Shown here in pieces: positions 41,304-50,671 of a stretch of 64,000 nt of DNA. Every line of letters begins with the position of its first letter. The stretch's first letter is position 1. Position numbers and translations under genes: made by a program. The stretch lies in contig NZ_JADKMA010000009.1 in assembly GCF_017676365.1 (NCBI RefSeq), positions 1 through 64,000 on the forward strand. The letters are read 5' to 3'. The notes below the pieces were generated by a model. It worked only from the letters and a program-made list of their open reading frames with translations, made no database searches and had not been told where the DNA came from. This DNA comes from Streptomyces oryzae (lineage in GTDB: Bacteria; Actinomycetota; Actinomycetes; Streptomycetales; Streptomycetaceae).

Positions 41304-42383
41304 GTGATCACGACAAAAGACCTCACAAAGGTCTACCGCACACGGGACCGCGAGGTCACCGCACTGGACGGGGTCGATCTCCACGTCAGCGAAGGCGAGG
41401 TCTTCGGCGTCGTCGGCCAGAGCGGCGCCGGGAAGTCCTCGCTCATCCGCTGCGTCAACCTCCTCGAACGCCCCACCTCCGGGACCGTCTCCGTAGCCGG
41501 TCAGGAGCTCACAGCCCTCGCCGGCAGCGGCAAGCGCGCCGGCAAGGAACTGCGCGCGGCACGCGGCCGGATCGGCATGGTCTTCCAGCACTTCAACCTG
41601 CTGTCCTCGCGCTCGGTGCTCGGCAACGTCGAGCTGCCGCTGGAGATCCTCGGCTACAGCGGACAGGAGCGCACCCGCAAGGCACGCGAACTGCTCGACC
41701 TCGTCGGCCTCGCCGACAAGGCCAAGGCACACCCCGCGCAGCTCTCCGGCGGCCAGAAGCAGCGGGTCGGCATCGCCCGGGCGCTGGCCGGCGACCCCAA
41801 GGTGCTGCTCTCCGACGAGGCCACCTCCGCACTCGACCCGGAGACCACCCGCTCCGTCCTCCAGCTGCTCCGCGACCTCAAGGAGCAACTGGGCCTCACC
41901 GTGCTGCTGATCACGCACGAGATGGACGTCGTCAAGGCCGTCTGCGACTCCGCCGCGCTGATGAAGAACGGCCGGATCACCGAATCGGGCACCGTCCCCG
42001 AACTGCTGGCCACGCCCGGCTCCGAGCTGGCCCGCGAGCTCTTCCCGGTCGGCGGAGTGCCCTCGGCGCCCGGCCGTACCGTCGTGGACGTCACCTTCCA
42101 CGGGGCGACGACCACCGAGCCGGTGATCTCCAAGCTGTCGCGGACCTACGAGGTGGACATCTCCATCCTCGGCGCCGCCATGGACACCGTCGCGGGCAAG
42201 CAGGTCGGCCGGATGCGGATCGAACTGCCCGGCAGCTTCGAGGACAACGTCGTGCCCATCGGCTTCCTGCGCGAGCAGGGCCTGACCGTGGATGTCGCGG
42301 CCGTCGCAGCCGCGGCGAGGGACGACGAGAACACCGACGCCGCGCGCGGCACCGCCGGTCTCGCCAAGGAGGGCGCCAAGTGA
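41304..42383 (+). CDS. metN: methionine ABC transporter ATP-binding protein
   Basis: The 359-aa ATPase of a MetNIQ importer. Walker A GQSGAGKSS (38-46), Q-loop FQHFNLLSS, signature LSGGQKQR, Walker B VLLSDEATSALDP and switch His in LLITHEMD are all present. The C-terminal NIL domain (about 270-335) binds methionine in the cell and shuts off transport. GTG 41304 is the first plausible start; the ribosome binding site is weak. Its stop overlaps the start of the permease fusion by 4 nt (ATGA). Confidence 0.95.
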   Translation: MITTKDLTKVYRTRDREVTALDGVDLHVSEGEVFGVVGQSGAGKSSLIRCVNLLERPTSGTVSVAGQELTALAGSGKRAGKELRAARGRIGMVFQHFNLLSSRSVLGNVELPLEILGYSGQERTRKARELLDLVGLADKAKAHPAQLSGGQKQRVGIARALAGDPKVLLSDEATSALDPETTRSVLQLLRDLKEQLGLTVLLITHEMDVVKAVCDSAALMKNGRITESGTVPELLATPGSELARELFPVGGVPSAPGRTVVDVTFHGATTTEPVISKLSRTYEVDISILGAAMDTVAGKQVGRMRIELPGSFEDNVVPIGFLREQGLTVDVAAVAAAARDDENTDAARGTAGLAKEGAK

Positions 42384-43909
42384 CCTGGTCCGAGATACAG
42401 CCGCTGCTCTTCCAGGGGTTCTGGGACACCCTCTACATGGTCGGCTGGTCCGCGCTGATCGCACTGGCCGGCGGACTGCCGCTGGGCGTACTGCTGGTCC
42501 TCACCGACAAGGGCGGGATGCTGCAGAACGCACCCGTCAACAAGGTTGTCGGCGCGGTGGTGAACGTCGGCAGGTCGCTGCCGTTCATCATCCTGCTGAT
42601 CGCCCTGATCCCCTTCACCCGGTTCGTCGTCGGCCAGTCCGTCGGCTCGACCGCCGCCATCGTGCCGCTGGCCATCGGCGCGATCCCGTTCTTCGCGCGG
42701 CTGGTGGAGACCGCCGTCCGCGAGGTCGACCGCGGGCTCGTCGAGGCCGTGCAGGCGATGGGCGGCGGCACCCCCACCGTCGTCTTCAAGGCGCTGCTCC
42801 CGCAGGCGCTGCCGTCCCTGGTGGCGGGGCTGACCACGACGGTGATCGTGCTGATCGGCTACTCGGCGATGGCCGGCACCGTCGGCGGCGGCGGTCTCGG
42901 CTCGGTCGCCGTGCAGTACGGCTACCAGCGCTTCGAGACCAGCGTCATGCTCGCCACGGTGGTCGCGCTGATCGTCATCGTCACCGCCGTGCAGATCATC
43001 GGCGACGCCGTCGTACGGCTGCTGGCCGCCGGCCGCGGCGGCGCGGGCGGCGACGGGGGAGCGAGCAGGCGGCTCGCCCGGCTGGGGCGTGGCCGTACCG
43101 TCGCGGTGGCCGCGGCCGTGGTGGTCCCGCTGGCGCTGATCGGCTACGGGATCGGCCAGGGCGGCGAGGACAAGCAGACCCTCAGGATCGCCGCCTCGCC
43201 CACCCCGCACGCCGAGATCCTGGAATACGTGCAAAAGCACCTCGCCGCCAAGGAGGGGCTCAAGCTCGACGTCCGCAAGTTCAACGACTACGTGGTGCCC
43301 AACACCGCCACCGAGAGCGGCGAGGTCGACGCCAACTTCTTCCAGCACAAGCCCTATCTGGACGACTTCAACAAGAAGCAGCACACCGACATCAGGCCGG
43401 TCGTGAACGTCGAACTGGAGCCGCTGGGCCTCTACTCCAAGAAGGAGCAGAGCCTGAAGGACATCGGGGACGGCGACACCGTCGCCGTCCCCAACGACAG
43501 CACCAACGAGGGCCGCTCCCTGCACCTGCTGGCCAAGCACGGCCTCATCGAGCTGAAGCCGGGCGCCGGACAGGAAGCCACCCTCGGCGACATCGCCGAC
43601 ACCAACGGCCTGAAGTTCAAGGAGCTGGAGGCCGCGGCGGTCCCGCGCGCGCTCGACGACGTGGACGCCGCCGTCATCAACGGCAACTACGCCGTCGACG
43701 CCGACCTCAACCCCGCCAAGGACGCGCTGGTCGCCGAGCAGGCCAAGGGCAACCCCTACGCGAACTTCCTCGCGGTCAAGGACGGCAAGCAGCACGACCC
43801 GCGGATCGAGAAGCTGGCCAAGCTGCTCAACTCCCAGCAGGTCAAGAAGTTCATCGAGCACAAATACCAGGGGGCCATCGAACCCGTCTTCGGGTCTGTG
43901 GGATCGTGA
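42380..43909 (+). CDS. fused methionine ABC permease and substrate-binding protein (MetI-MetQ)
   Basis: One 509-aa frame encodes two proteins normally separate. Residues 1-217 are MetI: five helices and the EAA coupling loop EAVQAMGGGTPTVVFKALLP (122-141). A basic, Gly-rich linker (218-238) leads to a hydrophobic segment (239-260), which looks like a former signal peptide but has no lipobox Cys. Residues 266-509 are a complete NlpA/MetQ-type methionine-binding domain (IAASPTPHAEILEYV onward, DANFFQHKPYL, ending GAIEPVFGS). The extra helix should tether the binding domain outside the cell. In most streptomycetes metI and metQ are separate genes. Confidence 0.9.
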   Translation: MTWSEIQPLLFQGFWDTLYMVGWSALIALAGGLPLGVLLVLTDKGGMLQNAPVNKVVGAVVNVGRSLPFIILLIALIPFTRFVVGQSVGSTAAIVPLAIGAIPFFARLVETAVREVDRGLVEAVQAMGGGTPTVVFKALLPQALPSLVAGLTTTVIVLIGYSAMAGTVGGGGLGSVAVQYGYQRFETSVMLATVVALIVIVTAVQIIGDAVVRLLAAGRGGAGGDGGASRRLARLGRGRTVAVAAAVVVPLALIGYGIGQGGEDKQTLRIAASPTPHAEILEYVQKHLAAKEGLKLDVRKFNDYVVPNTATESGEVDANFFQHKPYLDDFNKKQHTDIRPVVNVELEPLGLYSKKEQSLKDIGDGDTVAVPNDSTNEGRSLHLLAKHGLIELKPGAGQEATLGDIADTNGLKFKELEAAAVPRALDDVDAAVINGNYAVDADLNPAKDALVAEQAKGNPYANFLAVKDGKQHDPRIEKLAKLLNSQQVKKFIEHKYQGAIEPVFGSVGS

Positions 43910-46140: not shown

Positions 46141-46417
46141 ACACCTGTGACGTGCCGGTGAACCTCTGTGACGTGCTGCGTGACGAACCCCGACGAAGTG
46201 CGCTTTCCCTCCCACCCGTGGCCGGTGGTGTCGGTGGCGACGGGTAGGCTGATGGACTGTTGTGCCACCGTTCGGTGTTGACGCTTCGTCCGTCATTGTC
46301 CGAATGGTGTAGGCGGAGGCACGTGCCGCACAGAGTGCGTGCTCGTTCTTCATCTACGGGGTGCGGCGGTCCGTCCGCCGGGTTGGAAGGAGCACTAGCG
46401 ATGGGCGAGGGGAACGC

Positions 46418-49400
46418 ATGACTGACACCGGTCAGATCCCGGACGAGGGGCTGCCGGAGAACGCAGGCGGGCAGCAGCCGGAGGGGCAGCCGGGCGTTCC
46501 GGCCTCCGGAGCCCACACCTTCGCCGGCCCGGCCGGCGGCGTCGGCGACGTGCAGGACGTCCAGAACCTCCAGGAAGCCCAGGGCGTCCAGAACATCCAG
46601 CACGCAGCCCAGGCAGCCTCCGCCCACCCCCCGCAGAACCACCATGACGTGCAAGGCCCCCACATCGCGCATGTCCCCCACGACGCATCAAGTCACCACG
46701 AACCGCACGAGGAAGAGGACCTGCTGCTGATGCCGTCCGCGCAGGGCGCCTGGAACGAGCAGCCGGCGCCCGGCCCGGGACAGCCGATGCCGCAGACCCA
46801 GCCCCACCCGCAAACCCAGCCCCAGCCGGAAGGCTCCTACGAGCACGAGTACGACCCGCACGGGCAGCCGCACCCTGCCGCCGCCCAGCAGCCGCCGCAG
46901 GAGGGCGGTTTGCCGCCCGAGGCGCCGTACGGCCCTGAAGGCGCCCCCGCGCCGGGCGAAGCGTACGCGGTCAACGGCTATGCGGAGCACGGACATCCGC
47001 TCGGAGACGGAGCGCAGGACGCCGCGTACGTCCAGAACGGGCAGGGCGCGGCGCAGCCGCCCGCGCAGGACACTCAGCCGGCCCAGCCGGAGCAGCCGCA
47101 GCCAGACGCCGCTGCCGGCGCCGCCTCGCAGTCGGCCGCGGCCGCACCGGAACAGCACGAGACGGACGGCCGCGACTCCGGCTCCATCGACGTGAGCTCC
47201 GTCCGAAACCCCCAACAGCCGCAGCCGCACGCAGCGCCCGCGTCCCCGCAGAGTGCCGCACCCGGTAACGGCAACGGCGGTGGGAACGCCAGCGGAAACG
47301 GCCCGCGTCGCCCGCTGCACCTCGGGCCGCCGGTGCCCGAGCAGTCCGGCACCGTGCGTCCGCTCTCCGAGCGGGCCGCCGCGCAGCCGGCTCCCGCGGC
47401 TCCGCAGGCCGCCCCGGTGCAGGGTGCCCCCGTGCAGAACGCGCCGGCCGGCCCGGCTCCCGGCGCGGCGCCGCAGCAGGCAACTCCTGCTGTCATGCAC
47501 TCGCAGACCGCGGAGCCTGCTGCCCCCGAACAGCAGCCCGCACAGGCCGAACCCCCGGCGCAGCAGCCGGAGCCCCAGCCCCAGCCCCAGCACCAGGCGG
47601 AGGAGCAGCCGCACCCGGAGCCCCAGCCGGGCGCGCAGCCGCAGCCGCAGTCGGAAGCGCCGCAGCCGGAGGCCGAGCAGCAGGCACCCGTACCAGCCGT
47701 CGAGGAGCCGCTGCCCGGCCCGCAGCTGGGCCAGCTCCCGCCGGACGCGTGGACCGCCCAGCCCGCACCCGCGACGGCCGAGCCCGGCCTTCCCGCGGAG
47801 CAGCCCGTGCCCGGGGAGCAGCCCCTCCCCGCTGAACAGGCCGCTCCGGTCGAGCAGTCCACTGCTGCCGAGCAGCCCGCTGCCGAGCCGACGACGGGGG
47901 GACCGATCGAGGTCTCCGCGTCCGGTGAGGCCGTACCCCAGCAGGCGCCCGCGTCCGCGCCGGAGAGCGCCGTCAGCGACACCGTGCCCGGCCCTCGGCA
48001 GGAGGCGCAGCCCGGCGCGCTGCCCACCGTTCCGGCGCAGGGCGGCGAAGCGCAGCCTCAGTCGGTGGCCCCGCCGATAAACGAGAACCCGGAGCAGCAG
48101 GACGGCCCCGCGATCCCCGAACAGGCGACAACAGCCCCCGACTCCCCGGGCACCTCGTCCGAGGCCCAGCCCGACCAGGAGCCCGAGCCCATGCCGACGC
48201 CCGAAGCGGCTGCCCCTCAGCCGGCACCGGAAGCACAGCCCGGCAACACCGCAGAGGCTGCCGCGCCGGTGAACGCTCCGGCCGACTCGGCGACCATGGA
48301 GCTGGGCAGCGTCGCGGAAGCCACGGAGCCCGCGCCGCCCGCGCAAGCCGCGAACGGTGAGGCCGACGCGGACGCCCCCACAGCAACCACCGACTCCCAG
48401 TCTGCGGCGGCAGAAGACGAGTCCGTCGCTGCCGAGGCGACGACCGGCGAAGCAACCGGCGAGCCCGAGGCTGCAGCCGAAGCCGAAGCCGAAGCCCAGG
48501 CCGACACCGAGGTTGAGGCCCACCCCGGGACCGCAGCCGACTCCGAAGCCGCAGCAGAGACCGAGACCGAAGCCAAGGCCGAAGGCGAAGCCGAAGCCGA
48601 AGCCGACTCCGCGACCGCAGCGGACTCCGAAGCCGCAGCCGGTAACGATGCCGCGGCCGCAACCGAAGCCGCAGCTGACCCCGGAACCGCACCCGGAACC
48701 GAAGCCGAAACCGAGCCGCCCACCGGCGACGCCGCGGCGAGCGAGCCCGGCACCGCGTCCGACACCGAGGCGCCCACCGAAGGCGAACAGCCGACGCCGG
48801 CCGAAGGCGAAGCAACGGCCCCCGCCGAAGGCGAAGCCCCAGCCCCGGCCGACACCCCCGCCGAAGAGGGCGCCGAACACGGGGCCGAACAGGGCGGCCA
48901 GCACGGCGCCGAAGACGTCGCCGACGCCCCCGTGGGCGACCCCGCGCCGGGGTACGCCGAGGCCGAGCGGGAAGCCGTGCACCGGCTGATGCGGGAGCGG
49001 CGGGACATCCGTAACGGCTTCCGGCCCGACCCGATCCCGCACGACGTGCTGCTCCGCGTCCTGGAGGCGGCGCACACGGCGCCCAGTGTCGGGCACTCGC
49101 AGCCGTGGGACTTCGTGGTGATCCGCTCCGAGGAGACCAGGCGGACCATGCACGAGCTGGCCGAGCGGCAGCGGCTGGCGTACGCCAAGTCGCTGCCCAA
49201 GGGCCGGGCGAAGCAGTTCAAGGAAATGAAGATCGAGGCGATCCTCGACACCCCGGTCAACATCGTCGTCACGGCCGACCCGACGCGCGGCGGCCGGCAC
49301 ACTCTCGGGCGGCACACGCAGCCGCAGATGGCGCCGTACTCCTCGGCGCTCGCCGTGGAGAACCTGTGGCTCGCCGCGCGGGCCGAGGGGCTGGGCGTGG

Positions 49401-50671
49401 GCTGGGTCAGCTTCTTCGACGAGCGGGAGCTGGTGCGCACACTGGAGCTGCCCGAGCACTTGGAGATCGTCGCCTATCTGTGCGTCGGCTACGTCGACGA
49501 ATTCCCCGACGAGCCCGAGCTGATGCAGGCGGGCTGGTCCAAGCGGCGCCCGCTGTCCTGGGTCGTCCACGAGGAGTCGTACGGACGCCGCGCGCTGCCC
49601 GGCGCCGAGCCGGCCGGGATGCTCGCCGAGACGCTGGGCGCCATCCGCCCGCTGGACGCGAAGGCGCTCGGTGAGGCGTGGGAGCGGCAGAAGCGGATGA
49701 CCAAGCCCGCCGGGGCGCTCGGCATGCTGGAGATCATCTCGGCGCAGCTGTGCGGGCTCTCCCGCAAGTGCCCGCCGCCGGTGCCGGAGCCGGCCGCTGT
49801 GGCGATCTTCGCCGGGGACCACGGCGTGCACGCGCAGGGCGTGACGCCCTGGCCCCAGGAGGTCACCGCGCAGATGGTGGCCAACTTCCTCGGCGGCGGG
49901 GCGGTCTGCAACGCGTTCGCCAACCAGGTGGGCGCCGAGGTGTGTGTCATCGACGTCGGAGTGGCGGCCGAGCTGCCCGCCACGCCCGGTCTGCTGCCCC
50001 GCAAGGTCCGGGCCGGTACGGCGGACATGACCGCAGGGCCCGCGCTCAGCCGCGAGGACGTCGAGCGGGCCCTCGAGGTCGGCATCGAGACCGCCCGCGA
50101 TCTCGTCGCGGCCGGCAACAAGGCGCTGCTCACCGGCGAGATGGGCATCGCCAACACCACCGCTTCCGCGGCGCTGATCGCCGCCTGCACGGGCGCCGAC
50201 CCCGCCGAGGTCACCGGGCGCGGCACCGGCATCAACGACGAGACACACGCCCGCAAGGTCGAGGTCGTACGCCGCGCGCTGGAGCTCCATCAGCCCGACC
50301 CGGCCGACCCGTTGGGCATGCTCTCCGCCTTCGGCGGGCTGGAGCACGCCGCGATGGTCGGACTGATCCTGGGCGGCGCCTCGCTGCGTACGCCGGTCAT
50401 CCTCGACGGGGTCAGCGCCGGGGCCGCCGCGCTGGTGGCCCGCGCCGTGGCGCCCGAGGCGCTCGCCGCCTGCATCGCCGGCCACCGCAGCGCGGAGCCC
50501 GGCCATGTCGCGGCCCTCACCAAGCTGGGGCTGCGGCCGCTGGTCGACCTCGATCTGCGGCTGGGCGAGGGCACGGGTGCGCTGCTGGCGCTCCCGATGG
50601 TGCAGAGCGCGGCCCGTGCGATGCACGAGGTGGCCACGTTCGACGCGGCGGGCGTCACCGAGAAGGGCTGA
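46418..50671 (+). CDS. cobT: BluB-CobT fusion: DMB synthase plus nicotinate-nucleotide:DMB phosphoribosyltransferase with an 845-residue low-complexity N-terminus
   Basis: A 1417-aa protein. Residues 1-845 are low complexity: first Pro/Gln/Ala/Gly-rich, then long Glu/Ala/Thr runs, probably disordered. Residues 846-1065 are a flavin nitroreductase of the BluB type (RRDIRNGFRPDPIPHDVL, TAPSVGHSQPWDFVVIR), which makes dimethylbenzimidazole from FMNH2. Residues 1066-1417 are CobT, with GDHGVHAQGVTPWP, the NTTASAAL region and catalytic Glu1384 in LGEGTGA. The fusion makes and activates the lower ligand of cobalamin. GAGGGGAACGC precedes ATG 46418. Similar fusions occur in other streptomycetes. Confidence 0.9.
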   Translation: MTDTGQIPDEGLPENAGGQQPEGQPGVPASGAHTFAGPAGGVGDVQDVQNLQEAQGVQNIQHAAQAASAHPPQNHHDVQGPHIAHVPHDASSHHEPHEEEDLLLMPSAQGAWNEQPAPGPGQPMPQTQPHPQTQPQPEGSYEHEYDPHGQPHPAAAQQPPQEGGLPPEAPYGPEGAPAPGEAYAVNGYAEHGHPLGDGAQDAAYVQNGQGAAQPPAQDTQPAQPEQPQPDAAAGAASQSAAAAPEQHETDGRDSGSIDVSSVRNPQQPQPHAAPASPQSAAPGNGNGGGNASGNGPRRPLHLGPPVPEQSGTVRPLSERAAAQPAPAAPQAAPVQGAPVQNAPAGPAPGAAPQQATPAVMHSQTAEPAAPEQQPAQAEPPAQQPEPQPQPQHQAEEQPHPEPQPGAQPQPQSEAPQPEAEQQAPVPAVEEPLPGPQLGQLPPDAWTAQPAPATAEPGLPAEQPVPGEQPLPAEQAAPVEQSTAAEQPAAEPTTGGPIEVSASGEAVPQQAPASAPESAVSDTVPGPRQEAQPGALPTVPAQGGEAQPQSVAPPINENPEQQDGPAIPEQATTAPDSPGTSSEAQPDQEPEPMPTPEAAAPQPAPEAQPGNTAEAAAPVNAPADSATMELGSVAEATEPAPPAQAANGEADADAPTATTDSQSAAAEDESVAAEATTGEATGEPEAAAEAEAEAQADTEVEAHPGTAADSEAAAETETEAKAEGEAEAEADSATAADSEAAAGNDAAAATEAAADPGTAPGTEAETEPPTGDAAASEPGTASDTEAPTEGEQPTPAEGEATAPAEGEAPAPADTPAEEGAEHGAEQGGQHGAEDVADAPVGDPAPGYAEAEREAVHRLMRERRDIRNGFRPDPIPHDVLLRVLEAAHTAPSVGHSQPWDFVVIRSEETRRTMHELAERQRLAYAKSLPKGRAKQFKEMKIEAILDTPVNIVVTADPTRGGRHTLGRHTQPQMAPYSSALAVENLWLAARAEGLGVGWVSFFDERELVRTLELPEHLEIVAYLCVGYVDEFPDEPELMQAGWSKRRPLSWVVHEESYGRRALPGAEPAGMLAETLGAIRPLDAKALGEAWERQKRMTKPAGALGMLEIISAQLCGLSRKCPPPVPEPAAVAIFAGDHGVHAQGVTPWPQEVTAQMVANFLGGGAVCNAFANQVGAEVCVIDVGVAAELPATPGLLPRKVRAGTADMTAGPALSREDVERALEVGIETARDLVAAGNKALLTGEMGIANTTASAALIAACTGADPAEVTGRGTGINDETHARKVEVVRRALELHQPDPADPLGMLSAFGGLEHAAMVGLILGGASLRTPVILDGVSAGAAALVARAVAPEALAACIAGHRSAEPGHVAALTKLGLRPLVDLDLRLGEGTGALLALPMVQSAARAMHEVATFDAAGVTEKG

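Follow-up and report, generated by a model that had tools for sequence, protein, structure and literature searches.

The permease and the binding protein of a methionine importer are encoded in Streptomyces oryzae by a single gene, metIQ, and very probably form a MetNI importer with two covalently tethered, non-lipidated MetQ domains, which is made of MetNIQ parts and works in the manner of OpuA and EgtU. As far as the open literature was searched, this architecture is new for the MetNIQ family, and it is known in the OpuA and EgtU families. No earlier report of a MetI-MetQ fusion was found in the open-access literature, which spans only part of the journals.

The gene lies in a window of 64,000 nucleotides, i.e. 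the whole stretch of DNA that was analysed. It is a single stop-free frame of 509 residues on the forward strand (42380-43909), with a GTG start and a TGA end. Translation, Pfam and hydropathy agree that it holds a complete MetI, a basic linker, a helix and a complete MetQ, as the original prediction had it. The genes metN and metIQ share 4 nt (GTGA, with the stop of the first and the start of the second), and the operon order metN-metI-metQ is that of MetNI-MetQ of Escherichia coli and Neisseria meningitidis. The features are the following.

41304-42383, forward strand: metN, ATPase with a C-terminal NIL (C2) regulatory domain (Pfam ABC_tran and NIL).
42380-43909, forward strand: metIQ, MetI-MetQ fusion of 509 codons plus TGA, GTG start, kept in 18 distinct sequences.
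42380-43018, forward strand: MetI permease domain with five hydrophobic helices, residues 1-213 (BPD_transp_1, alignment with E. coli MetI, fit to 3tui).
43019-43093, forward strand: basic linker, putatively cytoplasmic, residues 214-238, 6 K/R and 1 D/E, length variable by whole codons.
43094-43153, forward strand: sixth hydrophobic helix (the tether), about residues 239-258 (hydropathy, dN/dS).
43145-43147, forward strand: TAC, the codon of Tyr256, where split relatives carry the lipobox Cys.
43154-43177, forward strand: stalk, putatively extracytoplasmic, residues 259-266 (dN/dS 0.73).
43178-43906, forward strand: MetQ methionine-binding domain by homology, residues 267-509 (full-length Lipoprotein_9, Asn462).

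The identity of the two halves is supported by profiles, alignments and predicted structure. Pfam places BPD_transp_1 at residues 32-215 (1e-19) and Lipoprotein_9 (PF03180), over the whole model length, at residues 268-504 (3.8e-86). The NCBIfam MetI model (NF008049) matches residues 8-215 with 212.2 bits and passes its cut-off of 212. The NCBIfam MetQ models match from residue 240 onward with strong E-values, yet remain under their curated cut-offs; MetN likewise scores 365.6 bits against TIGR02314, under the cut-off of 499.7, and the OpuAC-type substrate-binding domain (SBD) model PF04069 reaches 20.9 bits on the MetQ stretch, under its cut-off of 21.2. Residues 9-213 of metIQ align with residues 8-212 of E. 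coli MetI and residues 239-498 with E. coli MetQ, and Asn462 of the fusion aligns with Asn229 of E. coli MetQ, which is required for tight methionine binding (PMC12357092). Two AlphaFold models, with and without MetQ precursors, gave a mean pLDDT of 84-86, most blocks of both domains reaching at least 80; the junction (residues 221-263) stays below 50 in both models, and the second model draws a helix at 229-253. In Foldseek searches the MetI part matched 3tui chain A with a target-normalised TM-score of 0.95, and the MetQ part matched solved MetQ-family structures (4k3f, 4qhq, 4yah, 7mbz_E) with a target-normalised TM-score of about 0.9. Among the best 50 matches, those aligned across both parts were the OpuA chains 7ahd_A and 7ahh_A (overall TM 0.36-0.39), the alignment with 7ahd_A (OpuABC) spanning 536 columns at a TM of about 0.4. 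In E. coli, trans-inhibition by methionine acts through the NIL domain, the regulatory part of MetN; since MetN of S. oryzae carries both ABC_tran and NIL, the part responsible for this regulation is present. With a MetI-type permease, an adjacent MetN bearing C2/NIL and a MetQ fold with its binding residue, the locus has the features of a MetNI-Q system and methionine transport is predicted. A separate lipid-anchored MetQ, a feature that is usual in actinobacteria and not strictly defining, is lacking.

The S. oryzae genome (7.7 Mb) is a draft of 404 contigs, which might suggest a sequencing or assembly artefact at the junction. The probability of such an artefact is negligible, however, as the junction recurs in 18 distinct sequences that come from many projects, one-contig genomes included; the same open junction in so many sequences excludes both chance and sequencing error. 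Among these sequences the linker differs in length by whole codons only and no stop occurs at the junction, so that the indel artefact around 43030-43160 against which the original prediction had advised a check is not found. Species genomes were scanned and 394 Streptomyces genomes searched, 10 of the 394 carrying the fusion. Stop-free full-length matches were obtained from S. albus, S. albus chlorinus, S. smyrnaeus, S. spirodelae, S. reniochalinae, S. diacarni, S. qinglanensis, AA1529, S. cacaoi, S. iconiensis, S. boncukensis, AJS327 and four genomes of a second subclade. The 18 sequences thus fall into clade A, relatives of S. albus, S. cacaoi and S. qinglanensis, and clade B, found in the four genomes. 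Clade B (L121-L124; genomes G071, G208, G074 and G129) sits on a very long branch of about 0.85 changes per site, both MetI and MetQ having evolved fast there, and its helix differs from that of clade A (AGVTAVAGVALVGSLTVGT). No further stop-free fusion was seen in 395 genomes of the class or 297 of the phylum, at E-value limits of 1e-80 or 1e-90, nor among the top plasmid matches listed. Full-length matches in Azoarcus and Pseudomonas were rejected as fusions, being split genes with a stop between them.

The junction itself combines a basic stretch, a membrane helix and a lost lipobox. The hydropathy profile has six peaks, five in MetI and one at residues 241-259, which bears out the sixth helix foreseen at residues 239-260; its Kyte-Doolittle mean (KD19) is 2.24, within the 1.86-2.80 of the five MetI helices, and it is preceded by the six K/R against one D/E of the linker. 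The lipobox position reads LALIGYG in S. oryzae, with Tyr256 (TAC) in place of the Cys, so that the helix was rightly described as devoid of a lipobox Cys. LIGYG or LLGYG is invariant, and the codon always TAC, in the 14 of 14 clade A rows checked; clade B has no Cys at this position either. The lipobox was surveyed in 178 records in which metI and metQ are neighbours: the Cys is absent from all 29 fused records and present in all 147 split actinobacterial loci, the two exceptions being split proteobacterial genes devoid of a lipobox. The loss of the stop and that of the lipobox Cys, which the original prediction had asked to compare, thus coincide in every fused locus (29/29), and no intermediate was found among the 178 records. 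Split MetQ proteins without the Cys, from an Azoarcus MAG (L102) and from Pseudomonas citronellolis (L107), resemble ordinary secreted periplasmic proteins.

The tether was originally proposed to be a signal peptide converted into a membrane anchor. The tether helix is there; the position and order of the parts make it likely that it descends from the signal peptide of MetQ, the support from sequence being weak. In all 18 fused proteins the best match to a signal-peptide profile of split MetQ falls on the tether, and 12 of 14 clade A rows have Tyr where the profile has the Cys. The scores of -5.8 to 2.6 bits are nevertheless near chance for hydrophobic helices (median of chance best matches -7.7, maximum 0.7), whereas held-out true MetQ signals reach a median of 45.9 bits on the same profile.

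Selection on the junction was estimated as dN/dS among 13 clade A sequences. Along the protein the ratio is 0.15 (MetI), 0.35 (linker), 0.14 (sixth helix), 0.73 (stalk) and 0.28 (MetQ). Purifying selection on the sixth helix is strong and equals that on MetI, which shows that the helix is translated and under the same kind of constraint as the membrane helices of the permease. The cores of free-MetQ signal peptides gave 0.26, 0.57 and 0.95 (three split groups, few sites). These values bear on the possibility that the protein is synthesised whole and that signal peptidase I then frees MetQ by a cut after the sixth helix. Small residues around LIGYGIG and the partial cutting of a Cys-to-Ala NmMetQ at a noncanonical site (PMC8416018) speak for cleavage. 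It is nonetheless quite improbable: neither subclade has an AxA motif behind the helix, the constraint on the helix equals that on MetI and goes beyond the need of a mere signal (0.26-0.95 in free signals), and release would be costly, given that released Neisseria MetQ hardly stimulated MetNI while the uncleaved pre-protein did.

Could a separate MetQ instead be produced beside the fused product, from an internal start in the linker? The linker does contain CTG codons, and a purine-rich GGGGGAG lies at about 43053-43060. Residues 214-242 of S. oryzae metIQ, however, hold no in-frame ATG, GTG or TTG, no start is conserved across the 18 sequences, some of which have none until the helix end, and the KEALFVR-coding stretch, which provides the ribosome-binding site and metQ start of most split Streptomyces, is absent; the product would moreover have no lipobox for anchoring. 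This possibility, which the original prediction had named as one that would overturn it, is accordingly very improbable, and a single tethered chain is the preferred product.

The fusion most likely arose once and in place, through loss of the metI stop and of the metI-metQ gap, the lipoprotein signal presumably being turned into an uncleaved helix during the fusion. Split genomes share the neighbourhood HAD hydrolase, metN, metI, metQ, GNAT acetyltransferase and cobL-like gene with most of the fused genomes of clade A, and clade B keeps metN and GNAT at the same places; this unchanged neighbourhood indicates that the fusion arose in place. In a combined MetI and MetQ tree, very distant rows omitted, the fused rows form one clade (98/91) whose sister comprises S. 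sulphureus, S. xiaopingdaonensis and HNM0574; these three have separate genes and a lipobox. A quick tree with distant outgroups has two changes, clade B standing apart from clade A. Single-gene trees neither recover one fused clade alone nor reject one, and the MetI-only tree needs three changes. Two independent fusions, one in the S. albus group and one in clade B, would agree with these three changes, with the poor alignment of the clade A and clade B linkers and with the long branch of clade B, away from clade A when distant outgroups are present. Against them stand the single clade obtained with moderate outgroups and the full set with distant outgroups, on which constraining the fused rows to one clade raises the likelihood (p-AU 0.60, not rejected). 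Two fusions therefore appear rather unlikely and would leave the architecture unchanged either way; a single origin is favoured by the sequence comparisons.

In the proposed importer, each MetI subunit would bear its own MetQ at the C-terminus, so that two MetIQ and two MetN would make a (MetN)2(MetIQ)2 transporter with two tethered MetQ; the fusion thus supports the stoichiometry of one MetQ per MetI that had been put forward. The C-terminus of MetI faces inside in known MetNI structures. A directly joined MetQ would therefore be cytoplasmic, and the positive linker and the sixth helix would place it outside. Judging from MetI topology, the linker would be cytoplasmic, the sixth helix would cross outward and MetQ would sit outside on a short stalk. 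The conservation of basic residues and a hydrophobic helix in both subclades, despite differing sequences, may well reflect the need for MetQ to sit outside. Tethered MetQ would then bind methionine and dock onto the two MetI subunits in the fashion of OpuA.

Compared with MetNI-MetQ of E. coli and N. meningitidis, the S. oryzae system has homologous MetN with NIL, MetI and MetQ and keeps the binding Asn, but its MetQ is covalently joined through a transmembrane helix, is not a lipoprotein and would be fixed at two per transporter. Sequence and hydropathy also show the feature typical of OpuA and EgtU, an SBD that follows the permease at its C-terminal end with an additional membrane helix in between. 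The likeness to OpuA and GlnPQ that had been suggested holds for OpuA, with its C-terminal SBD behind an anchoring helix; it fails for GlnPQ, whose SBDs are at the opposite end of the transmembrane domain (TMD). OpuA (OpuABC) of Lactococcus lactis, a glycine betaine importer, shares the single chain with TMD, anchoring helix, short linker and C-terminal extracellular SBD, two SBDs in all (PMC11065425), but differs in SBD and permease family and in substrate and has a scaffold domain and gating by ionic strength and c-di-AMP. In the ergothioneine importer EgtU of Streptococcus pneumoniae a single chain likewise combines six transmembrane helices with an extracellular SBD at the C-terminus (PMC9732360), although EgtU belongs to the betaine-type (OpuF-like) family and not to MetI/MetQ.

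MetNI-Q is among the most thoroughly studied type I importers. As to the anchoring of MetQ, full stimulation of MetNI in Neisseria requires either the lipid or a signal that stays uncleaved. Lipidated Neisseria MetQ stimulates MetNI, the uncleaved pre-protein does so less well and secreted MetQ hardly at all (PMC8416018). The NmMetQ pre-protein, which still stimulates the MetNI ATPase from an uncleaved hydrophobic N-terminal helix, is a laboratory C20A variant separate from MetI (PMC8416018); its activity indicates that a helix left uncleaved can serve as an anchor. For the OpuA SBD, attached through its anchoring helix and a linker of 11 residues, the apparent concentration is about 4 mM (PMC11065425), and that of MetQ on its stalk of about 8 residues is expected to be similar. 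The benefit of the fusion would be a higher local concentration of MetQ and the avoidance of lipoprotein processing. Tentatively, the lineage may have moved from a diffusing lipid-anchored MetQ to two tethered MetQ at very high apparent concentration, whose recruitment would no longer be rate-limiting and which would either compete or work together at a single docking site. If true, tethering changes the mechanism inside the MetNIQ family through one natural fusion. The fusion also shows a plausible simple route from a lipoprotein-type to an OpuA-type importer architecture. A natural fusion with its sole MetQ covalently fixed, together with close split controls in the same neighbourhood, makes a ready test case for how far the anchoring of MetQ matters.

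Neither the S. oryzae genome nor any of nine other fused genomes has a PF03180 protein besides the fused MetQ, which rules out an additional free MetQ elsewhere in the genome. Both lgt and lspA are present in S. oryzae; the change is therefore specific to the fused MetQ, and loss of the lipoprotein pathway as cause of the fusion is ruled out. In some split Streptomyces metQ is immediately followed by another metQ-like lipoprotein gene of greater divergence, about 1.1 kb downstream of metI (L083, L086, L091, L095; also G032, G020 and G230). No riboswitch or RNA element was found by Rfam near the operon, the sole match being a chance microRNA far under threshold. Further along the window, a forward-strand frame of 1436 codons (46361-50671) carries a nitroreductase-family (BluB-like) domain at residues 878-1044 and a DBI_PRT/CobT domain at 1095-1432, preceded by about 850 residues of low-complexity A/P/E/Q-rich sequence. 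Its vicinity to the methionine importer and to a corrin methylase gene hints at a possible link between B12 and methionine.
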